Positions 10,058 through 20,886 of a DNA stretch of 38,237 bases are shown here, in pieces. The stretch lies in NCBI GenBank assembly GCA_002753505.1, contig PEAG01000032.1, positions 1 to 38,237 on the forward strand, given 5' to 3'. Under the pieces are notes generated by a model. That model was not told the origin of the DNA. It ran no database searches and saw only the letters and a list, made by a program, of their open reading frames with translations. The translations under genes were made by a program, and so were the position numbers. Each line of letters begins with the position of its first letter. The stretch's first letter is position 1. Origin of the DNA: Magnetococcales bacterium HCHbin5 (GTDB lineage Bacteria > Pseudomonadota > Magnetococcia > Magnetococcales > Magnetaquicoccaceae).

Positions 10058-10792
10058 ATGCACTATCCAAACAAGGCGATCATGCTGGTGGTCACGTCCA
10101 TGTTGTACCTGTCCGGTTTTGCGGGCGGTGCTCAGGCTGGGCCGGTAGCCAAAGCCGACGCGCAACCCACAAAGCTGGCGGCGGTGCAGCAACCAGAGGC
10201 AAATGCCAAGGAACCTGCAGCAAACACGCAGCATGGTCAGGTGCTGTTCAAAGAGAATTGCGAGGTATGTCATCAGGAAGAGGGTAGGGGCAAACCGGGG
10301 CTGGCTCCCTCTCTCACCAACAAGGAGCTGTTGAGTGCCGCATCAGACCGGTTTTTGCTGGAAACCATTCGGGACGGTCGTTCCCCCACGGCCATGCCTT
10401 CCTTCGGTGCCTACATGAAAGACAACGACATCAAGGACATCATCGCCTATCTGCGCTCTTTCCACAAAACGGCACTGATAGGAGATCGGGTGGATAATGA
10501 CCGGCCAGCCATGGGGGATCCACGGTTGGGCAAGCGGTGGTTTACCCAGGTTTGCGCGGGGTGTCACGGTGTCAACGGTGGCGGCTATGCGGAGGCCGGC
10601 AGCGGTTCTGGTACGGCCATCGGTACCTCCGGTTTTCTGAGCAAGGCGTCTGACGGCTTCATTCGCTACATCATCATGAATGGTCGTTCCAATACCCCGA
10701 TGCGCGGCTTTTATGGTCCGGATGGCTTGGCCAGTCTGACCCACCAGGAGATTGATGACATCATCTCCTATCTGAGGATCATTCAGAATTAA
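10058..10792 (+). CDS. Periplasmic diheme cytochrome c (two class I-like domains)
   Basis: The 244-residue protein has a Sec signal peptide (cleavage after GGAQA, about residue 27) and two haem c attachment motifs, CEVCH (68-72) and CAGCH (166-170). Each is followed by a plausible methionine ligand (Met113 in TAMPSFG, Met215 in TPMRGF), so His/Met haems of mono-haem class I type are expected, unlike the bis-His haems of NapB. GGAGGG at 10045-10050 sits seven bases before the ATG and fixes the start; an upstream in-frame TTG at 10004 is not supported. It is the first gene of the Nap-like cluster, just ahead of the molybdoenzyme. It is the obvious periplasmic electron donor (inference), replacing the missing NapB/NapC. 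Confidence 0.9.
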   Translation: MHYPNKAIMLVVTSMLYLSGFAGGAQAGPVAKADAQPTKLAAVQQPEANAKEPAANTQHGQVLFKENCEVCHQEEGRGKPGLAPSLTNKELLSAASDRFLLETIRDGRSPTAMPSFGAYMKDNDIKDIIAYLRSFHKTALIGDRVDNDRPAMGDPRLGKRWFTQVCAGCHGVNGGGYAEAGSGSGTAIGTSGFLSKASDGFIRYIIMNGRSNTPMRGFYGPDGLASLTHQEIDDIISYLRIIQN

Positions 10793-10851: not shown

Positions 10852-13584
10852 ATGATGAAGCGAGATCGCATGAGCCTGGGCAGACGGGCCTTCCTGAAGG
10901 GCAGTGGAGCGATGGCTGCCGCAACCGCCACCGGCAGCTTGTTGGTCAATAATCCAGAACTGGTCGAGGCCGCCCCGGCACAGCCGACCAAGGATGTCAA
11001 GTCATCCACCCAGAAGACCTCTTACGCAGCCTGCCCCTACTGTGGTGTGGGTTGTGGCACCATTATCCAGACGGAAAACGGCAAGATTGTCTCCATGCAG
11101 CCCGACCGGGACCATCCCACCAACAAGGGTTTGCAGTGCATCAAGGGGCTGACGGCCGCCGAGCCCATCTATGTGGATCGCCTGGAAGGGGATTGCTATG
11201 TCCGCAAAGATGTGTGGTCGGAGTGGAACAAGCCTGGCCATGGCGACATTGAGTATGTCTCCAAGACCAAGGGGGCCTTCGATGACGATTTGTGGGACCG
11301 GGTTCCCTACGAAGCCGCCGGGGATATGATCGCCCAGAAAATTGCCCACTTTGCCAAAAAATATACCGGCAACTCCATTGGTCTGTATGGTTCCGGCCAG
11401 TTGACCCTGGAAGGTCAATATCTGGAAAATCTTTTCTTGAAAGGGGTCCTGGGCTCCAACACCATCGAAGCCAACGCCCGCATGTGCATGACCTCGGCGG
11501 TAACGGCCTATTTTGCCACCCTGGGTTCTGATACACCCCCGCTCTGCTTTGAAGACATAGAGCTGTCCGACATGTTTATCCATTTTGGCCATAATCCGCG
11601 AGAGGCCCACCCCATCGTGTTCTGGCGCATTGCAGACCACAAAAAGCGGACTGACATCGCAACGGTGGTCGTGGATCCCCGCAGCACCGGGACCGTGCAG
11701 GGGTATGCGGACATCAACCCCAACAACAGTGTCCATGTGCCCATTCTCAATGGTGACATTGCCTTCCTGAACGCTGTGGCCCATGTGCTGCTCAAGGAAC
11801 ACCCGGATGTGATCGACTGGGAGTTCATGAAGGCCCACACCAACAGTTGGAAAGAGTATACCGATGGGGTGCTGGAGCGTTACAGCCCCGAGCAGGTGCA
11901 ACAGTTCATGGGTGGTCCCAACCATCCTGTTCCCCCCGAATTGATTCGTCATGTGGCCAACCTGTTTGCCAACGCCACCCGCAAGCGGTTGGAGCGCAAA
12001 AAAGCGGGCAAAGAGCAGGGTGGGGTGATCATCATGTGGGGTATCGGCTATAACCAGCACATCCACGGCCAGCACAATGTGATCTCCATCGTCAACCTGA
12101 TGGCCATGACCGGCAATCTGGGCAAGCCGGGCTGCGGTCCTTTCTCCATGACCGGCCAACCCAACGCCATGGGAGAGCGGTTGACGGGTGGTTTGACCGG
12201 TCGTCTGCCCTTCAATCAGGGGTTGGACAACGCGAAGCACCTTGCCCACATGGCCAAGGCATGGAACGTGCCGGAGGCAAACCTGCAAACGGCCGGTGCC
12301 GCCAAGAATCCGGGCTTTGCAGTGGGCATGATGGAGCGGGCGATCAAAGGGGACGTCAAGGCGATGTTTTTGATCTATGCCACCCACATCGACCTGCCGG
12401 ATCTCATGAACCTGGTCCGCCCGGCCTTGACCAAGGCCTTTGTGATTGCCCAGGAAATTTATCGTCACGCCCCCAACAACCTCTATGCCGATGTCATCAT
12501 GCCGGCCTCCACCTGGGGAGAGGTGCAGGGGGTTTATATCAACTCCGAGCGTCGTCTCCATGTGGTGGACCAAGCCGCCAAAGGGCCCAAGGGGTGCAAG
12601 CCGGACATGGACATGGTGATCGACAAGGGTCGTCATATTGCCAATCTGCTCGGTATGGACGGGGATAAAATATTCCCCTGGAAGCGGGATCCCGACACCG
12701 GCGAATATAACGCCGAGGAGATATTTGCCGAGTTTGTGGCAGCGTCCAAGGGCGCGGATTGCGACCTGACCGGCATGCTGGAGGTGAAGCAACGTGATGG
12801 TATCTCCCTTTACGACCAGATACGCAGCATTGATGGCAAGACCCGTGGTATGCAGTGGCCAGCCCCGACCTACGAGATTGCCAAGGCCGGCGGTACCAAA
12901 CGGCGTTACATGGGTCAGGAGGGCAAATGGGATGACAAGCCTTACGGCATGTTCCGCCGCCCCGATGGCAAGATGCAGTTCAAGCTGTGCGAAATGGACT
13001 ATTCCAACCGAGCCGAGTTGACGGCCAAGCTGATGGAGTTTGGTCGCAAGGACGGGGACCATTCGCTCTTCACCATCGATCATATGGACCTGATCAAAGA
13101 GGCGCGGGACAAGGCGATGACCCCGGACATCCCCGACGAAACCTTCCGCGACAAGAGCTGGGACAAGGTGCCCAAGGACAAGTATCCCATGTGGCTGGGC
13201 CTGGGGGTGGTCTACGAGCATTTCCACACCGCCAAATCCAACCGCAGCCCCACCTGCCGCCGCCTGGTGCCGGAGCAGTATGTCGAGATGCACCCGGATG
13301 ATGCCGCCGCGTTGGGGATTCAGGACGGTGACCTGGTCAATTTGATCACCCGTCGGGGCCAGTTCCAGGCCAGAGCCCAGGTGGGCAGCAACAGCCTGGT
13401 CAAACCCTCCCGCAACAGTGTGCCGAGAGGGTATCTGTTCAGCCCCTGGAACCTTTCGGTGGCGGACAGTGCGGATCCCAAGAAAAACAAATGGTTGGTT
13501 AATGCAACCTCCAGCCGCATCTGGGATCTGGTCTCTGGACAGGTTGACTTTAAAAAGCTGGCCTGTCGAGTGGAAAAGGCCTAA
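10852..13584 (+). CDS. napA: NapA-like periplasmic molybdopterin oxidoreductase (probable nitrate reductase catalytic subunit)
   Basis: The 910-residue precursor has a Tat signal (GRRAFLKG, Arg11-Arg12). Its [4Fe-4S] motif is C61-x2-C64-x3-C68-x27-C96, followed by Lys98 in CIKG. The segment ARMCMTSAV places Cys212 exactly where NapA carries its molybdenum-ligating cysteine. Other NapA-like landmarks are GYNQHIHG, PFSMTGQPNAMGE, and a C-terminal cofactor domain ending in a DFKKLA-type tail. NapA reduces nitrate to nitrite in the periplasm with a bis-MGD cofactor. The protein is longer than E. coli NapA (about 828 residues) and nearer the long forms of Campylobacterota. The context (cytochrome, NapG, NapH, NapF) fits, but napD, napB and napC are absent, and the pocket segment HFHTAKSNRSP differs from the E. 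coli type. A different oxyanion substrate is possible. GGAGAG precedes ATG 10852; ATG 10855 has better spacing. Confidence 0.82.
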   Translation: MMKRDRMSLGRRAFLKGSGAMAAATATGSLLVNNPELVEAAPAQPTKDVKSSTQKTSYAACPYCGVGCGTIIQTENGKIVSMQPDRDHPTNKGLQCIKGLTAAEPIYVDRLEGDCYVRKDVWSEWNKPGHGDIEYVSKTKGAFDDDLWDRVPYEAAGDMIAQKIAHFAKKYTGNSIGLYGSGQLTLEGQYLENLFLKGVLGSNTIEANARMCMTSAVTAYFATLGSDTPPLCFEDIELSDMFIHFGHNPREAHPIVFWRIADHKKRTDIATVVVDPRSTGTVQGYADINPNNSVHVPILNGDIAFLNAVAHVLLKEHPDVIDWEFMKAHTNSWKEYTDGVLERYSPEQVQQFMGGPNHPVPPELIRHVANLFANATRKRLERKKAGKEQGGVIIMWGIGYNQHIHGQHNVISIVNLMAMTGNLGKPGCGPFSMTGQPNAMGERLTGGLTGRLPFNQGLDNAKHLAHMAKAWNVPEANLQTAGAAKNPGFAVGMMERAIKGDVKAMFLIYATHIDLPDLMNLVRPALTKAFVIAQEIYRHAPNNLYADVIMPASTWGEVQGVYINSERRLHVVDQAAKGPKGCKPDMDMVIDKGRHIANLLGMDGDKIFPWKRDPDTGEYNAEEIFAEFVAASKGADCDLTGMLEVKQRDGISLYDQIRSIDGKTRGMQWPAPTYEIAKAGGTKRRYMGQEGKWDDKPYGMFRRPDGKMQFKLCEMDYSNRAELTAKLMEFGRKDGDHSLFTIDHMDLIKEARDKAMTPDIPDETFRDKSWDKVPKDKYPMWLGLGVVYEHFHTAKSNRSPTCRRLVPEQYVEMHPDDAAALGIQDGDLVNLITRRGQFQARAQVGSNSLVKPSRNSVPRGYLFSPWNLSVADSADPKKNKWLVNATSSRIWDLVSGQVDFKKLACRVEKA

Positions 13585-13625: not shown

Positions 13626-14225
13626 GTGCATAAAAGACGTACATTCCTTCAGATGCTGGGATATGCGGTTGCTTCTTTGAGTATGGGTGCGGCAGATACT
13701 GCAACTGCCGCACCCACCGCCACCCGTGCCATGCGCTATCTGCGCCCCCCCGGTACGGGACCGGAAGGGCAATTTCTCACCCAGTGCATTCGTTGTGGTC
13801 AGTGCGGCCAAATTTGTCCCAACCAGGCCATTCGCTATTTTGGGCTGGAAAATGGCATTTACGCCCTGGATACCCCATACATTATCCCCCGTGAGCAGCC
13901 CTGCATTCTCTGCATGCAGTGCGGAGAGGTGTGTCCTTCCGGTGCCATTCCCAGGGTGGCGAGGGAGGCCGAGGAGATCATGGCCCGGGTTCAGATGGGC
14001 AAGGCGGTGGTGGACGAACAGCTTTGCCTCTCTTTTCAGGGCAAGACCTGCGGTGTCTGTTACCGGGCCTGCCCACTGCAGAACATAGCGATCAAGGTGG
14101 GCTTGCTGGAGCAACCGGCTGTGCTGGATGGTTGCGTGGGTTGTGGATTGTGTGAAAGATCGTGTTTGCAAATGCCCCAAGCCATTCGTATTTTCCCCCC
14201 CAAACAGGAGACTGCTCCTGTTTGA
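13626..14225 (+). CDS. napG: NapG-like Tat-exported ferredoxin with four [4Fe-4S] sites
   Basis: The 199-residue protein starts at GTG 13626 with GGAG about a dozen bases upstream. KRRTFLQ followed by a short hydrophobic stretch is a Tat signal. Four complete cysteine sets are visible: 54/57/60/64 (CIRCGQCGQICP), 93/96/99/103 (CILCMQCGEVCP), 134/142/145/149 and 170/173/176/180 (CVGCGLCERSC). This is the MauM/NapG pattern. NapG is known to work with the membrane polyferredoxin NapH to pass electrons from quinol to the periplasmic nitrate reductase system. The gene lies between napA and napH, as in A-G-H operons. It is 41 bases after napA and 17 bases before napH. Confidence 0.88.
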   Translation: MHKRRTFLQMLGYAVASLSMGAADTATAAPTATRAMRYLRPPGTGPEGQFLTQCIRCGQCGQICPNQAIRYFGLENGIYALDTPYIIPREQPCILCMQCGEVCPSGAIPRVAREAEEIMARVQMGKAVVDEQLCLSFQGKTCGVCYRACPLQNIAIKVGLLEQPAVLDGCVGCGLCERSCLQMPQAIRIFPPKQETAPV

Positions 14226-14242: not shown

Positions 14243-15268
14243 ATGGAACACCCCCCCTCCTCTGCCCCTGCAGCCTTTTTTTTCTGGCGGCATCTTAACC
14301 TGCTGCGCTGGTTGGTATTGTCGCTGGTATTTGCCATGTTGATTTTGCTGCCTTATGTCAGCCTCTATCAAAACTATGTGGCCGGCCATGCTTATGACCT
14401 GCTCACCCCCCATGAGCGGCAAATCTATGATGCAATGGAGTGGATCACCGCTCCCATTGCAAAGTCGGACCCTGCCAAAAATTTAAACGCGATCAAGGGC
14501 AATACCTGGTCTGGCACCCTGTTTGGTCTGGCCCTGTCCGATCCACTGGCGGTGGTGGGGCAGATAGCCGCCCAGATGAAAATTTATTGGCCCTTTTTGT
14601 TGACCGCCCTGATTCCCATCGGCCTGACCGTTCTGTTTGGGCGATTTTATTGCGGCTGGATATGTCCGGCGACCTTTTTGTATGAGATCAATGATACGGT
14701 CCGCAATGCGCTGCGCCGGCTCGGCCTGCTCTCCAGCGGCAAACGGTGGGACTTGCGGCTGAAATATCTGGTTCTGGCGGTGGGGGTTGGTCTGTCTACC
14801 GTTTTGGGTACCGTTGTCTTTTCCGCCATCTATCCACCCGTGATTGTCGGACGGGAGATTCAATACTGGATAACAGACAATGGTATGGGTGTTGGTTTGA
14901 CCTTTTTTCTCATCACCCTGCTGTTTGACCTGCTGGTGACCCGGCGAGGCTTTTGCCGCTATCTGTGCCCGGGTGGAGCTCTCTACTCCCTGTTGGGACG
15001 CTATCGCCTGTTCCGCATCCAACGACAGGTCGCCCGTTGCAACGATTGCACCTTGTGCGACAAGGTTTGCCAGTTTGCTTTGCAACCCATGCGGGATGGC
15101 TTTGGGCAGGAGTGCAACAACTGCACCGCCTGTATCGCTGTCTGTCCCACCCAGGCTCTCACCTTTCATGTGCAGTTGGCGGATCAGCCCTATCAAGGCC
15201 ATGGCCACTTGGGCGCAGCCTACAAGCGGCTGCAACTCCACTCTGCCGTCAAAGAGGAGCTGCGCTGA
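14243..15268 (+). CDS. napH: NapH-like membrane polyferredoxin
   Basis: This 341-residue inner-membrane protein has about four to five TM helices. It carries the two conserved membrane-edge motifs of the NapH/NosR/CcoG group, CGWICP (about residue 137) and CRYLCPGGALY, and two ferredoxin sites near the C-terminus (CNDCTLCDKVC and CNNCTACIAVCP). NapH is thought to oxidise menaquinol or ubiquinol and hand electrons to NapG. The ATG at 14243 is preceded by AGGTGA. The open frame continues upstream into napG, but those residues do not resemble the family. The stop codon shares one base with the next start (TGATG), so the following NapG-like gene is translationally coupled. Confidence 0.88.
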   Translation: MEHPPSSAPAAFFFWRHLNLLRWLVLSLVFAMLILLPYVSLYQNYVAGHAYDLLTPHERQIYDAMEWITAPIAKSDPAKNLNAIKGNTWSGTLFGLALSDPLAVVGQIAAQMKIYWPFLLTALIPIGLTVLFGRFYCGWICPATFLYEINDTVRNALRRLGLLSSGKRWDLRLKYLVLAVGVGLSTVLGTVVFSAIYPPVIVGREIQYWITDNGMGVGLTFFLITLLFDLLVTRRGFCRYLCPGGALYSLLGRYRLFRIQRQVARCNDCTLCDKVCQFALQPMRDGFGQECNNCTACIAVCPTQALTFHVQLADQPYQGHGHLGAAYKRLQLHSAVKEELR

Positions 15269-15999
15269 TGGAGAGACGCACCTTCCTGCAACGGCTGACC
15301 ACCACCGCCGCTGTGATAGCCGGCGCGGCGACGCCCTATGGATTGGCCCGGGTGATGAGCCCGGATGCCCATGCGGCCCCCCATACCCACCTGCGCCCGC
15401 CGGGCGCGCTGACGGATGATCGGGCCTTTGTTGAGGCCTGCATTGGCTGCGGGTTGTGTGGAGAGGTCTGTCCGGTGCATGCCATTCAATTTTATGGCCG
15501 GGAGGGGGGCAGCAAGGTGAACACCCCCTACATCAACCCCGTCAAAAAGGCCTGTACCCTCTCCGGCCACTGCATGGAGGTCTGTCCCACCGATGCGCTG
15601 ACGGTCACCCCCAAACGGGAGGTGGCCATGGGTATTGCCCAGATTGACCGAGCGGGTTGTTATCCCTGGGTGGATCGTGGGGTGTGCGGGGCATGCGTCA
15701 CGGCCTGCCCGCTGGGGCAGGAGGCGATCACCTTTGCGTTTGCCAATTTTTATCGGCCGGTGGTGCTCAAGGGCTGCGTCGGCTGCGGTGTGTGTGTGGA
15801 GGTCTGTCCCCATCCCAGCCTGCCGATCCGGATTGTGGACCGCTCGTTGGCCAAATATGCACCGGAAAAGATCACCCCGGAGATGTCCATTCCACAAGAG
15901 GCAACCGTTGTTGTCCCCTCTCCTCCTGCCAACGGGAGTACCGCCCCCAATCCAACCGGGTCGGGTAAAGGGGAGCCAGCCGGATTGCTGCCATTTTAG
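15268..15999 (+). CDS. Second NapG-like Tat-exported ferredoxin, one site with Cys replaced by Ser
   Basis: The 243-residue protein has a Tat signal (ERRTFLQ) and the same four-site layout as the first NapG. Sites 1, 3 and 4 are complete (58/61/64/68, 131/140/143/147, 170/173/176/180). Site 2 reads CTLSGHCMEVCP: Cys96, Ser99, Cys102, Cys106, so the second ligand is serine (TCC codon at 15562-15564). This site may hold a [3Fe-4S] cluster, a Ser-ligated cluster, or none. A Pro/Ser/Gly-rich tail of about 40 residues follows site 4 and is absent from the first NapG. AGAGGAGC precedes the ATG, which overlaps the napH stop. It is probably the soluble partner of the second NapH-like protein encoded two genes downstream (inference). 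Confidence 0.85.
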   Translation: MERRTFLQRLTTTAAVIAGAATPYGLARVMSPDAHAAPHTHLRPPGALTDDRAFVEACIGCGLCGEVCPVHAIQFYGREGGSKVNTPYINPVKKACTLSGHCMEVCPTDALTVTPKREVAMGIAQIDRAGCYPWVDRGVCGACVTACPLGQEAITFAFANFYRPVVLKGCVGCGVCVEVCPHPSLPIRIVDRSLAKYAPEKITPEMSIPQEATVVVPSPPANGSTAPNPTGSGKGEPAGLLPF

Positions 16000-16011: not shown

Positions 16012-16587
16012 ATGCTTGGTGCAAGAATCATCGTGGGCATCGTCGGGCTGTGGCTGCTGTTGGGTGGCCAAACCGCGTGGGCTCACCATGTGCTGGGACG
16101 ACCGGCCTATATCTGGAACGAAGACTCCCGAACCCCCCCTGCCATCCTGGTGGAGACCCTGATAGGACGCTATTCGGTCAACATGATGGTCTATCCGGCC
16201 TTTCCCAAGGCCGGGGAAGAGAGCCGCATCAAGCTGTATGCCACCCATCTGGAGAGTCATCAGCCTTTTGATGGACCGATCCAATTTTTTGTTCGGGATG
16301 ACCACTGGTTTGGCGATTGGTTTGGCGATACTCGCCGGGAGGCGTTGGGCACCCAGTTGCCCACTGACACCATTTATCGGCAAATTGTGGTGTTCAACGA
16401 AGAGGCGTATTATATTGTCACCGCTGAATTCACTGCCGACGGCGAACCGTACACCATTGAGATGCCTATTCGCATCGGCGAACACAGGCAGGTGTGGCCC
16501 CTGGTGCTGACGGTTGGCGTGATTGGTGGCGTTCTGGGGGGAGCAGCCCTCAAGAAACGCCGCCGCAGCCGATCTGCTGCCGCCTGA
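16012..16587 (+). CDS. FixH/CopC-like periplasmic protein with C-terminal membrane anchor
   Basis: The 191-residue protein has a signal peptide (hydrophobic 6-19) with a predicted cleavage after QTAWA, residue 24. The mature protein would then begin with His25-His26 (HHVLGRPAY). About 130 residues of mostly beta pattern follow (VNMMVYPAFPKAGEESRIKLYA, with later strands to EMPIRIGEH), resembling the small immunoglobulin-like folds of FixH, YtkA or CopC. A C-terminal TM helix (VWPLVLTVGVIGGVLGGA) and a basic tail (KKRRRSR) end it. No enzymatic function is recognised. A free N-terminal histidine suggests a copper or other metal site by analogy with CopC. AGAGGG precedes the ATG. It lies between the second NapG-like and second NapH-like genes. 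Confidence 0.6.
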   Translation: MLGARIIVGIVGLWLLLGGQTAWAHHVLGRPAYIWNEDSRTPPAILVETLIGRYSVNMMVYPAFPKAGEESRIKLYATHLESHQPFDGPIQFFVRDDHWFGDWFGDTRREALGTQLPTDTIYRQIVVFNEEAYYIVTAEFTADGEPYTIEMPIRIGEHRQVWPLVLTVGVIGGVLGGAALKKRRRSRSAAA

Positions 16588-16594
16588 CTGCCTC

Positions 16595-18160
16595 ATGCCA
16601 GCAACCATTATTCAGGGAAGTTATTGCCTGCCCGATGGCTCAACACTTATGATCCATCCCGGCATGCCGCCGCTGTGGGGGTGGTGGATCATGGTTGGCA
16701 TATTCTGTATTGCCGCTTACGCCCTCTTTTCTCCTCTGCCCTCTCCCCGCCCGCCACGCACCCTGCCCATGGCACGACTGCCCCTGCTGGGTCCGTTGGT
16801 GGAATGGTTGACCGCCTCGCCCTGGCCACTGCTGCTGTTGCGGCTCTGCAGTGCCGCCTTGTTGCTGCTGGTGGTGGCTGCGGGCCTGTGGGGCACCCCG
16901 TTGCCGGAACGCAATCTGGCCACCACCCTCACCTGGACCCTGTGGTGGACGTTGGTGATTTTGTCGGTCTTTTTTGTGGGCTCAGCCTGGTGCGCCATCT
17001 GCCCGTGGGATGCCCTGGCCGTCTGGCTCAATCGGCGCGTCTGGTGGGGACGGGGTGAGGCGGAGAGCAGCCTGGGGTGGCGATTTCCCACCGCCTTGCG
17101 CACAGTCTGGCCCGCCCTGGGGCTGTTTATCGGTTTGACCTGGCTGGAATTGGGGGTGGGAATCACCCTGAACCCGGCGGCTACGGCCATGTTGGCCCTG
17201 CTGATGGTCGTGCTGACCACCACCTCCCAGGCCCTCTTTGAGCGCAAACCCTTCTGCCGCTATCTCTGTCCGGTGGGCCGCACGGTCGGTTTTTATGCCC
17301 AACTGGCCCCGGTGGAGCTGCGGCCTGTGGAGCCGGAACGGTGTCAACAGTGCCGTTCACTGGCCTGTTACCATGGTTCCCAGACGATGGAGCCCTGTCC
17401 AACCTATTTGACCATGGGCCGTTTTTCCCAGAACACCTATTGCATATCCTGTGGGGCCTGTGTATTGAGCTGCCCGGACCATAATGTTTCCTGGCGGTTG
17501 CGCCCTTTGGCCGCCGAAGCTGCCGTGGGTGCCCGGCCCCACTGGGATGAGGCATGGTTCATGGTGGTATTGTTGGCCCTGACCACCTTCCACGGCATCA
17601 CCATGATGCCCCTCTGGGAGGAGGTGCAGCGGGCCATGGCTCCCCATTTTGGCAAGACAGGCTCTTTTCTGCTGCCCTTTTCCCTGGGCATGGGGCTCTG
17701 TCTGGCCATCCCGGTGCTGCTCTACGCCGGGGTGACCGAGCTCACCCGCCGCTTCGCAGGGGGAGACTACCCGTTTCGCAGGCTGTTCGCGCTCTTTTCA
17801 TTTGCCGTGTTGCCGGTAGCGTTTGCGTATCATCTCTCCCATAATTTAAACCACCTGGTCCGGGAGAGCAGTGGCATCTCCTTCGTGTTTGCCAACCCTT
17901 TCGGGATCGGCACCTTGCCCAGAACCCCCATGGAGCAGCAGTTGCGCATGGTGGATCTGCTGATCCCGGAGACATGGCTGTTTGTTGGTCAGGGAGGACT
18001 GTTTTTGTTGGGCTATGGTTTGGCGGTCACCATTTTGCGTCAACGCATCGCAACGGTGGGCTATAAAGCCAAACATCTGCTCCCCATGCTGATCTTTTTG
18101 GGGGGATATACCGGCTTCAATGTCTGGTTGGTGGTGCAGAGTATGGTCATGAGGCTGTAA
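16595..18160 (+). CDS. Long second NapH-like polyferredoxin with His-rich C-terminal membrane domain
   Basis: This protein of about 521 residues has NapH/NosR-family motifs: WCAICPWDAL and CRYLCPVGR at the membrane edge, then a cysteine loop starting CQQCRSLAC and a standard site CISCGACVLSCP. The first loop site has the spacing CX2CX4CX9C, which is unusual. A further membrane domain of about 180 residues follows the ferredoxin region and is absent from NapH. One of its helices contains His413, His416 and His420 (YHLSHNLNH), candidates for haem, quinone or metal binding. The start is uncertain: ATG 16595, eight bases after the previous stop, is chosen, and ATG 16649 is possible; neither has a good Shine-Dalgarno. 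It is probably a second quinol-oxidising module serving the cluster (inference). Confidence 0.75.
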   Translation: MPATIIQGSYCLPDGSTLMIHPGMPPLWGWWIMVGIFCIAAYALFSPLPSPRPPRTLPMARLPLLGPLVEWLTASPWPLLLLRLCSAALLLLVVAAGLWGTPLPERNLATTLTWTLWWTLVILSVFFVGSAWCAICPWDALAVWLNRRVWWGRGEAESSLGWRFPTALRTVWPALGLFIGLTWLELGVGITLNPAATAMLALLMVVLTTTSQALFERKPFCRYLCPVGRTVGFYAQLAPVELRPVEPERCQQCRSLACYHGSQTMEPCPTYLTMGRFSQNTYCISCGACVLSCPDHNVSWRLRPLAAEAAVGARPHWDEAWFMVVLLALTTFHGITMMPLWEEVQRAMAPHFGKTGSFLLPFSLGMGLCLAIPVLLYAGVTELTRRFAGGDYPFRRLFALFSFAVLPVAFAYHLSHNLNHLVRESSGISFVFANPFGIGTLPRTPMEQQLRMVDLLIPETWLFVGQGGLFLLGYGLAVTILRQRIATVGYKAKHLLPMLIFLGGYTGFNVWLVVQSMVMRL

Positions 18161-18161
18161 C

Positions 18162-18767
18162 ATGGAACGTCGGCAATTTTTTCGTCTGGGGTTTGAGAAG
18201 GCGGTTAAAACGGCGGTGGAGTGGGCCGACAGCGCGGTGGAAAGCCGCGCCGGACGCTGTTTCCGCCCCCCCTATGCCCAGCGGGAGATGGCCTTTTTGT
18301 TGACTTGCAGCCGCTGTGATCGGTGCATCCAGGCTTGTCCCCACCATGTTCTGTTTGCCCTGCCCCTGGAGATGGGACCGCAACTGGCCGCCACACCGGC
18401 CCTGGATTTGTTAAACCACGGCTGCCATTTGTGCAGCGACTGGCCCTGTGTTCGGGCCTGCGAACCCGGTGCCTTGCGGCGGCCCGTCGGGGCAACGCCG
18501 GAGGCTGTCATCCCCCTGCCCCAGTTGGCAACGGCCCGCATTGACCCCAACCGCTGTCTACCCTATCGGGGGCCTGAGTGCGGAGCCTGTGGTTCCGTCT
18601 GTCCGGTTCCCGGGGCGTTGCGGTGGGATGGCCCCCGTCCTGCCATTGTCAGTGGGCTCTGCGTGGGGTGTGGTCTGTGTCGGGAGGCCTGCGTCACCAC
18701 GCCCAAGGCCGTCGAGTTGCAAACGTTGCGCAAGGAGTCCCATGATCAAGAGCCCTCCCATACCTGA
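18162..18767 (+). CDS. NapF-like cytoplasmic ferredoxin
   Basis: The 201-residue protein starts one base after the previous stop. It has an N-terminal ERRQFFR basic segment but no hydrophobic stretch, so it is probably not exported. The FRPPYA...FLLTCSRCDRCIQACP segment is typical of NapF: RPP, then the first [4Fe-4S] site. Further cysteine sets are CHLCSDWPCVRAC, C...CGACGSVCP and CVGCGLCREAC, giving four sites instead of the three usual in NapF. NapF is a cytoplasmic Fe-S protein that interacts with NapA before export and may aid its maturation. Here it may instead receive electrons from or pass them to the NapH-like membrane proteins. Its last 26 bases overlap the next gene. Confidence 0.78.
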   Translation: MERRQFFRLGFEKAVKTAVEWADSAVESRAGRCFRPPYAQREMAFLLTCSRCDRCIQACPHHVLFALPLEMGPQLAATPALDLLNHGCHLCSDWPCVRACEPGALRRPVGATPEAVIPLPQLATARIDPNRCLPYRGPECGACGSVCPVPGALRWDGPRPAIVSGLCVGCGLCREACVTTPKAVELQTLRKESHDQEPSHT

Positions 18768-20886
18768 TTTGTTTTCGCCGGGTCGTCATGGCCTGCTGCT
18801 GTCGGGGCTGTTGCTGCTGGCTGTGTTGTGGGCCAGCCCCAGCCTGGCAGCGGCCACATCGCCGCTGGCCACATCGCACAGCCCCTATTTGCGTCATCAC
18901 GCCGGGGATCCGGTCCACTGGTTGCCTTGGGAAGAGGCGACGCTGGCGTTGGCCCGTCAACAGGACAAACCGATTTTTTTGTCCATCGGCTATTCCGCCT
19001 GCCATTGGTGTCGGGTAATGGGGGAGGAGACGTTTCAGGATGCTGCTGTGGCGCAAGAGTTGAACAGCCATTTTATTCCCATCCTGGTGGACCGGGAGGA
19101 GCGACCGGATCTGGACAGCTTTTATCTGCAGGTGGCACTCCGCATGACGGGACGTTCCGGTTGGCCGCAAAACCTGTTTTTGACGCCGGACCTGCTGCCA
19201 CTCTTTGCAGGCAATTATTATCCCCCCACCCCCAGGGAGGGATTGCCGGGGTTGCAGGATATTCTGGTTGGATTGGGTCGAGCCTGGCGGGAAAACCGCC
19301 CGCAACTGCTCGCGCAGGAGTCGGAAATTCGCACCCAATTATTGGCCATCGGCCAACCGACCCCTGTGGTTGCAGCAGACGCATCCAGTCAGGATCCGCG
19401 GGAGCGTGCCGCCGAGTTTTTGTTAAAACGAAGCGATGCGCGTCAGGGCGGCTTTGAAGAGTCGCCCAAATTTCCCCATCCGGTCGCGTTATCCTTGATG
19501 TTGCGGGAGGGGGTTCGGCAGGGAAACAGCCCGCTGCTGACGGCGGTCTACACCACTTTGGACCGGATGGCGATGGGGGGGATACGGGATCAACTGGGGG
19601 GGCTGTTTCACCGTTATGCGGTCGACCGATTCTGGCGTACGCCGCATTATGAAATCATGCTGGCGGACAATGTTTTGCTGGCGCGTGTCTACCTGGAAGC
19701 CTGCCAGATTTCTCACGAAAGCCGTTATGGCTGGATGGCACGGACCCTGCTGGACGCGCTCCTGGAGCGGTTTTTGTTGGCAGACGGCGGCCTGGCCACC
19801 GCTTTGGGGGCGGACAGTCCAAACCAGGCGGGCCATTGGGAAGAGGGTGCCTACTATCGCTGGAGCCCGGCGGCGGTAAAAGATTTACTGCCTGCGGCCG
19901 AGCGCGCGCGCTGGGAGGCCGCTGTCGGGGTGGGAAACGATGACGGTCAGGCGGGTGCCTTGTGGCTGCGGGGAGAACCGCAACAGATGGAGACGCTCCA
20001 TCGCCAGTTGGCCGATCTGCTGGGACGAGTGACGGTTGCACGTCAGCAGCGGCCCCCGCCTGCCCGGGATGACAAAGTGATTACGGGCTGGAACGGCCTG
20101 GCGGTCAGTAGTTTTGCCCTGGCGGCCCGGGTGTTGGATGAGCCCCGTTATCTGGCCGTTGCCCAGGGATTGTTGGCTCCCCTGATGGCGCAGTTTAACC
20201 AGACCGGCGGGTTGAGCCATTTTCGTCTGGGCAGCCACTGGGTTGGAGAGCCGGTTCTGGACGATTATGCCTTTTTGTTGCAGGCTTTGATGGATATGTA
20301 TGAGACCGATTTTCAGCCAAAGCATTTGGAGGCGGGTTGGGCGGTGGCCCAGGCCATGCTGGCGCGGTTTCAGCAGCCCGGAAGTCTCCTGATGCATTTG
20401 ACACCGGTTGCAACGGAGAGCCCCATTCCGCCTCAGACCCTTGTGCTGGATCAGCAGGGTATTCCGGCTGGCAATGCGGTGGCCTGGAGTGGACTGGCGC
20501 GGTTGAATGTTTGGCGACTCGATGGCAAGTTGGGCGAGGCGTTGGCAGCGGTGAGCCATCAGTTGGCCGCCATCACCGCCGAGAGTCCCCACCAGGCGGG
20601 AGAGTTGTTGCGGCTGCTGGATTATGCGCCGGCCACCGCCAGGGAGGTGATTCTGGTGGGGGATCGGGAGGATCCGATGGTTGTCCGCTGGTTGCACTGG
20701 TTGCGGCAGCGGATGGGAATCGGCGAGAGTGTAGCGGTTGTTGCACCGACGGCTGCGTGGTCGGACTGGCCGCAGTTGGCGAACCGTTTGCAGCAGCAGG
20801 GCAAACCGACCGCCTATATCTGTCAAGGCCGTATTTGCCTGGAGCCGGTGACGGATTGGGACGGTTTCAAGCAGCGGTTTGAATGA
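18742..20886 (+). CDS. Exported DUF255 (YyaL/SSP411-type) thioredoxin-fold protein
   Basis: The protein of 714 residues starts at ATG 18742 with AAGGAG five bases upstream. The N-terminus carries a signal peptide (GLLLSGLLLLAVLWASPSLA), followed by a thioredoxin-like domain opening with SPYLRHHAGDPVHW and holding the motif SACHWC (Cys87, Cys90). The remainder is an alpha/alpha-barrel of the N-acylglucosamine 2-epimerase-like type, with GGIRDQLGGLFHRYAVD and FPHPVALSLML blocks. This is the full-length YyaL/spermatogenesis-associated 20 architecture. Those proteins are usually cytoplasmic and of unclear role, so an exported form at the end of a periplasmic redox cluster is notable. It could act in thiol handling or cofactor or cytochrome maturation (inference). 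It overlaps the NapF-like gene by 26 bases. Confidence 0.85.
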   Translation: MIKSPPIPDLFSPGRHGLLLSGLLLLAVLWASPSLAAATSPLATSHSPYLRHHAGDPVHWLPWEEATLALARQQDKPIFLSIGYSACHWCRVMGEETFQDAAVAQELNSHFIPILVDREERPDLDSFYLQVALRMTGRSGWPQNLFLTPDLLPLFAGNYYPPTPREGLPGLQDILVGLGRAWRENRPQLLAQESEIRTQLLAIGQPTPVVAADASSQDPRERAAEFLLKRSDARQGGFEESPKFPHPVALSLMLREGVRQGNSPLLTAVYTTLDRMAMGGIRDQLGGLFHRYAVDRFWRTPHYEIMLADNVLLARVYLEACQISHESRYGWMARTLLDALLERFLLADGGLATALGADSPNQAGHWEEGAYYRWSPAAVKDLLPAAERARWEAAVGVGNDDGQAGALWLRGEPQQMETLHRQLADLLGRVTVARQQRPPPARDDKVITGWNGLAVSSFALAARVLDEPRYLAVAQGLLAPLMAQFNQTGGLSHFRLGSHWVGEPVLDDYAFLLQALMDMYETDFQPKHLEAGWAVAQAMLARFQQPGSLLMHLTPVATESPIPPQTLVLDQQGIPAGNAVAWSGLARLNVWRLDGKLGEALAAVSHQLAAITAESPHQAGELLRLLDYAPATAREVILVGDREDPMVVRWLHWLRQRMGIGESVAVVAPTAAWSDWPQLANRLQQQGKPTAYICQGRICLEPVTDWDGFKQRFE

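Follow-up and report, generated by a model that had tools for sequence, protein, structure and literature searches.

A predicted N-terminal His-His protein encoded between ferredoxin genes of a conserved Nap-like operon in Magnetococcales

The protein encoded by ORF 16012-16587 of the window, i.e. of the whole 38,237-nucleotide stretch of Magnetococcales DNA analysed here, and almost all of its relatives carry two adjacent histidines directly at the predicted signal-peptide cut, and their genes lie in a conserved Nap-like operon. In what follows, HH protein means the product of this ORF and its relatives. We tentatively favour the view that it is a membrane-tethered periplasmic accessory subunit with a His-His arm for binding a metal ion, probably copper, beside NapH-type polyferredoxins.

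Results

The ORF begins with ATG at 16012, is preceded by AGAGGG and is translated into 191 amino acids. In its product, a short run of basic residues and then a hydrophobic core precede AWA-HHVLGRPAY (Table 1). The sequence-only reading of this DNA had placed the signal cleavage after AWA, leaving HHVLGRPAY as the mature start. Cut-site pattern and conservation agree with this, and from these two we infer that the protein is cut before His-His. Boundary statistics were calculated for 74 close relatives, non-redundant at 90% identity, with the divergent locus L096 left out. Position −1 is occupied by A in 72 and by S in 2 of them, position −3 by A in 48, V in 14, G in 4, L in 4, S in 3 and T in 1. 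Directly after this pattern His is found at both +1 and +2 in 74/74 relatives. Column entropy amounts to 2.7–3.8 bits at positions −24 to −4 and is 0 at +1, i.e. the signal peptide varies and the sequence after it is invariant, with the boundary exactly at the A-x-A cut. According to PMC12537917, His occupies position +1 in 2.6% of the signal-peptide proteins in the SignalP 6 training set. Set against this base rate, conservation in 74/74 relatives makes the His-His site more than a matter of chance. Before thinning and with the divergent row included, His1 is present in 85/85 and His2 in 84/85 sequences, so that the invariance of His25 and His26, which the same reading had proposed to check by alignment, holds with a sole exception. 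This is L096 (genome G074), which reads AMAAHFARG; its mature start would be HF or AHF, according to where the protein is cut. Three loci were left out of the 85: L010 and L056 are duplicates of L090 and L093, and the N-terminus of L095 lies off its contig.

Table 1. Parts of the HH gene and neighbouring genes in the window
Feature	Position	Strand	Basis
Diheme c-type cytochrome, start codon uncertain	10058..10792	+	
NapA-like molybdopterin enzyme, 910 aa, Tat-type start, below NapA cut-off	10852..13584	+	
NapG-like ferredoxin G1	13626..14225	+	
NapH-like membrane ferredoxin H1	14243..15268	+	
Second NapG-like ferredoxin G2, directly upstream of the HH gene	15268..15999	+	
HH gene: Sec-type signal peptide, 24 aa, predicted cut after AWA	16012..16083	+	translation and boundary statistics
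HH gene: CAC CAT, codons of the predicted mature His-His (His25-His26)	16084..16089	+	
HH gene: invariant N-terminal arm, mature residues 1-19, HHVLGRPAYIWNEDSRTPP	16084..16140	+	conservation and pLDDT
HH gene: predicted Ig-like beta-sandwich, mature residues 20-131, fold nearest CrdA	16141..16476	+	model and structure comparison
HH gene: predicted C-terminal transmembrane helix with basic tail, mature residues 137-166	16492..16581	+	model
Long NapH-like polyferredoxin NapH2, 521 aa, extra C-terminal membrane domain	16595..18160	+	
Third NapG-like ferredoxin G3	18162..18767	+	

An earlier scan of the genome contigs with a single sequence found no relative. Scanning the contigs with the alignment gave 142 matches, of which 80 loci were kept, and one of the two search patterns contained AHH. 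The second pattern, without HH, is carried by 53/80 loci, and His-His is present in 53/53 of these. The other 27/80 loci are uninformative on His-His because they could be found only through AHH. Whole-genome searches without the HH pattern gave matches in 8/200 and 9/398 genomes. Relatives from HH-free searches with the N-terminus present have HH in 6/7 cases, the seventh being the G074 protein with its HF or AHF, and two further relatives found without the HH pattern (genomes G404 and G416) have it in 2/2. No relative of the HH protein was found in the viral and plasmid collections. The G416 locus, L164, keeps AHHILGRPDYSLNEDSNT and is without about 65 residues of the sandwich; this gap may reflect an internal deletion, gene decay or an error of assembly.

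A structure model was built from 75 aligned mature sequences (mean pLDDT 87.8). It consists of an eight-stranded Ig-like sandwich followed by a long C-terminal helix, in line with the small beta-sandwich and the C-terminal membrane tether proposed from the sequence. Mean pLDDT is 52 for mature residues 1-10 and 65 for the next ten, and the invariant arm is predicted to be loose, outside any preformed site. Mean column majority in the 75 aligned HH proteins is 0.93 for arm residues 1-19 as compared to 0.69 for residues 20-131. The arm is the most conserved yet least ordered part of the HH protein, as judged by alignment and model, which suggests that it is completed by a metal, by a partner or by both.

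Several copper and nickel proteins have been traced through a His that signal-peptide cleavage exposes at the N-terminus. Signal-strapping has revealed such a His in the role of a metal ligand, as described in PMC12537917. Across the 75 aligned sequences, the exported domain of the HH protein has no conserved His columns other than H1 and H2. Inside the sandwich no His column exceeds 23% of the 75, and in the same alignment we found neither a conserved Cys column nor an internal cluster of His, Cys or Met that could complete a site. Conserved possible oxygen ligands are Glu24 (72/75), Glu86 (71/75) and Asp95 (73/75); Met35 (73/75) and Trp75 (60/75) are conserved as well. A second ligand near the N-terminus, which the sequence-only reading had hoped to see in a structure prediction, did not appear in the model, in which mature residues 1-20 form a loose segment.

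Neither Pfam nor NCBIfam names a family for the HH protein, and among solved structures no sequence relative rises above noise. The nearest solved fold is that of H. pylori CrdA (Z 12.3, rmsd 2.3, 106 residues, 10% identity), like the HH protein a small exported Ig-like beta-sandwich; the C-terminal membrane helix of the HH protein falls outside the match. CrdA is without any His and uses a Met-rich motif, according to PMC9182242, whereas the HH protein has His-His and no Met cluster. The next structure matches, at Z of about 9-10, are mainly FetP/P19/FtrA/Tp34-type copper/iron proteins, and the same group also holds unrelated Ig-like domains, e.g. complement macroglobulin domains. Foldseek ranked a macroglobulin domain first and also listed the copper proteins PmoD, CrdA and Zcp. 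Since Ig-like sandwiches are common, fold similarity proves no function; the modelled fold is compatible with copper proteins. P19, FtrA and FetP are Ig-like periplasmic Cu/Fe proteins without sequence match to the HH protein. They use internal ligands and not an N-terminal His, and we know of no C-terminal membrane helix in them. With respect to YtkA, the Ig-like fold of the YtkA/CrdA type is found in the HH protein, and the YtkA model PF13115 gives weak matches in 4/75 members at E≤1 (best E 0.1) and no match for the HH protein of the window. Of the copper-protein link that had been proposed from the sequence, the part resting on fold stands through the closeness to the copper protein CrdA, while a match to CopC or to a canonical brace did not emerge.

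The mono-histidine brace of YcnI (DUF1775) contains one His (His27), Glu50 and Trp137, according to PMC8424229. In the HH protein the spacing from His25 to Glu48 is the same, the two residues being 23 apart in both proteins. In mature numbering His1 is conserved in 75/75, Glu24 in 72/75 and Trp75 in 60/75 sequences, with the arm loose in the model. YcnI has a cupredoxin fold, whereas the HH protein has a CrdA-type sandwich and no Pfam DUF1775 match. The equal spacing is probably a coincidence because the folds differ; a YcnI-like mono-histidine brace in the HH protein is conceivable by analogy.

The genetic setting was compared in 85 loci by tblastn with the proteins of the window. The conserved order is cytochrome c, NapA-like, NapG, NapH, NapG, HH gene, NapH2, NapG, and in some loci a NapC-type cytochrome stands ahead of the diheme cytochrome. 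Among the loci with enough sequence, NapH2 is directly downstream of the HH gene in 65/73 and the third NapG in 7/73, the NapA-like gene is upstream on the same strand in 57/60, the diheme cytochrome likewise in 51/55, and a NapC-type cytochrome occurs anywhere in the stretch in 27/50. The position between Fe-S modules, already noted in the sequence-only reading, is confirmed, with G2 upstream and NapH2 downstream. After the cluster in the window comes a gene for a DsbH-type thioredoxin-domain protein (DUF255; 18739-20886), which has a relative in 4/85 loci.

The NapA-like protein scores 333.3 bits against a cut-off of 904 (PRK13532) and 301.7 against 930.55 (TIGR01706), and its nearest PDB relatives are periplasmic nitrate reductases. 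The Cys of its CMxSA motif aligns to 2jio (RMCMTSAV / RLCMASAV); we take this Cys to be the Mo ligand. A search of the genome gave no NapA above cut-off, no NapB and no NapD. As in Nap operons, there are a NapA-like enzyme, NapG, NapH and, in some loci, a NapC-type cytochrome. Unlike Nap operons, the cluster contains three NapG-like and two NapH-like genes together with the HH gene, and its genome is without NapB and NapD. It matches none of the four nap operon types presented in a 2026 review (PMC13223375). No description of the HH family or of its operon was found in the open-licence literature.

The extra membrane domain of NapH2 has invariant His333, Met337, His413, His416, His420 and Glu424 (57/57; 63/63 rows), located in the motifs HG..M and YH.AHN..H..RE, which may form a haem or copper site. 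Pfam has nothing for this domain, and no PDB sequence or fold match stands out for NapH2 (best Z 6.0). The diheme cytochrome has its own invariant Met, candidate ligands of its haems. Pfam recognises no copper enzyme among the operon members, and therefore a "copper donor", one of the roles suggested from the sequence, would have no evident recipient in the operon.

Some loci are without parts of the cluster. In genomes G028 and G074 the HH gene and NapH2 are present; the best NapA-like match has 33% identity in G028, and there is none in G074. Six loci have the HH gene and the third NapG, with NapH2 missing nearby, and in 5 of these 6 genomes NapH2 is absent throughout, although the assemblies may be incomplete. 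His-His is kept in all six, so NapH2 cannot be the sole partner. Since there are loci without each of them, the His-His tip does not depend on the NapA-like enzyme or on NapH2 as an obligatory partner. Judging from gene content, the common element across loci is NapG-type or NapH-type ferredoxins as a class.

Individual arrangements deserve mention. L091 in G028 is an isolated pair of HH gene and NapH2 beside repeat-rich genes, and its 19-kb stretch contains no gene for a Nap-like enzyme. In Thioploca sp. (L067) the isolated pair and a gene that we take, by eye, to be NosL-like are separated by about 3.5 kb; the NosL family comprises copper chaperones of nitrous oxide reductase. At L152 (genome G399) there is a distant NapH2-like membrane protein in a 538-aa frame, apparently without Fe-S cysteines, and G399 has a Nap-like cluster without NapH2.

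Discussion

In the explanation that we tentatively favour, the HH protein would serve a Nap-like molybdenum-enzyme system as an accessory subunit. Sec would export it, the signal peptide would be removed in front of His-His, and the C-terminal helix would anchor the protein in the inner membrane. A single transition-metal ion, copper being the most probable, would be bound by the loose arm through its free amino group, the side chain of His1 and perhaps that of His2; one of the conserved acidic residues may contribute a further ligand. The HH protein would then present this ion alongside the neighbouring NapH-type polyferredoxins, acting as a metal relay or metallochaperone during assembly or running of the electron-transfer complex. 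By precedent, copper is the most likely metal. The closest working analogy combines Ig-like copper proteins that partner membrane polyferredoxins (CcoG/CcoH) with the mono-histidine brace of YcnI. The polyferredoxin CcoG acts as a cupric reductase and has an Ig-like domain of its own (PMC7558416), and domains of the YtkA/CtaK type take part in the assembly of CuA (PMC13344008).

Metal binding is favoured by the invariant His-His at the predicted cut (74/74 and 53/53), by CrdA as the nearest fold, at Z 12.3 above the P19-type group at 9-10, and by the invariant membrane-domain His and Met of NapH2, which adjoins the HH gene in 65/73 loci. It is weakened by the lack of an internal ligand cluster, by the loose arm and by the absence of a copper enzyme from the operon. 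One divergent relative with HF weakens it too. Moreover, the whole arm 1-19 is conserved beyond the His pair, which would also fit a docking peptide.

Such a peptide is the strongest alternative, possible and nearly as likely as metal binding. The arm may serve docking or assembly in a metal-free form, entering a NapG/NapH-type protein or the NapA-like enzyme, where His-His would form hydrogen bonds. The spread of conservation over the arm (0.93 for residues 1-19 against 0.69 for 20-131) and the conserved gene order are consistent with this, and low confidence of the arm in a monomer model is expected of a segment that becomes ordered only on its partner. However, docking alone leaves unexplained why His-His stands exactly at the free amino end, a metal-chelating arrangement.

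The histidines may act on a partner in still another way: His1 or His2 could be an axial ligand to the haem (or Fe-S) centre of a partner and complete a redox centre there. Candidates for such a centre are at hand, as the operon encodes a diheme cytochrome c, in many loci also a NapC-type cytochrome, and NapH2 with its invariant membrane His. Nevertheless, we consider this unlikely, because the diheme cytochrome has ligand candidates of its own in its invariant Met and nothing in the structural comparison speaks for it.

The sequence-only reading had compared the protein to CopC-type proteins and histidine-brace sites, i.e. to a CopC-like copper donor with a canonical brace. CopC resembles the HH protein in being a small beta-sandwich with a mature N-terminal His, and the nearest fold of the HH protein is that of a copper protein. 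However, the second His ligand of CopC is absent from the HH protein. Neither the window protein nor any of the 75 members has a Pfam CopC match. A canonical LPMO-type histidine brace, in which His1 and a second His hold Cu in a T-shaped geometry, finds no counterpart either, since no internal His is conserved, although His2 stands next to His1. The canonical two-His site is thus not borne out, since a second conserved internal His is lacking, and with no copper enzyme in the operon a donor of this kind is very unlikely.

The same reading had called the protein FixH-like. FixH is encoded beside a polyferredoxin, and so is the HH gene, an arrangement recalling fixG-fixH. NCBIfam gives no FixH match, and Pfam gives none (PF05751) at E≤1 for the HH protein of the window and none among the families listed for the 75 members. 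Profile comparison by hhalign with 20 FixH sequences of the order finds the membrane helix only, at a probability of 2.5%, and the ectodomain reaches 0.7%. Topology is reversed: the membrane helix of FixH is N-terminal and uncleaved, whereas that of the HH protein is C-terminal and its N-terminus has a cleavage signature. Finally, a separate FixH is encoded in the genome at G000:C144, and likewise in 14/18 genomes of the family. What FixH/CcoH shares with the HH protein, as PMC7558416 presents it, is a small membrane-tethered periplasmic domain beside a polyferredoxin. Although FixH proteins of the order match the same YtkA model that weakly matches 4/75 HH proteins (best E 0.1), a diverged FixH/CcoH serving cbb3 oxidase assembly is extremely unlikely given the separate FixH, the reversed topology and the lack of profile similarity beyond the membrane helix.

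Conclusions

The HH family has a very clear N-terminal-His signature, and its gene is part of a Nap-like operon, conserved across loci, with eight or nine members. Its His-His tip can be seen as a variant of the N-terminal-His metalloprotein theme, as this theme is presented in PMC12537917, and the family is set apart from those metalloproteins by the His-His pair, by having no internal His and by its Nap-like setting. Taking metal binding by the arm further, an undescribed family of N-terminal His-His metalloproteins would be a subunit of an undescribed Nap-like complex, in which the arm-borne metal links polyferredoxins to the molybdenum enzyme; this extension is rather doubtful. To our knowledge, the combination of copper or another arm-bound metal with polyferredoxin and molybdenum-enzyme cofactors is found in no nitrate reductase.

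If the tip binds metal, a nitrate-reductase-like enzyme would have a step of metal handling in its biogenesis or in its electron flow, and we know of no such step for these enzymes. If it binds no metal, the conserved tip indicates an interface with a partner, and mutations in this interface should disable the complex.
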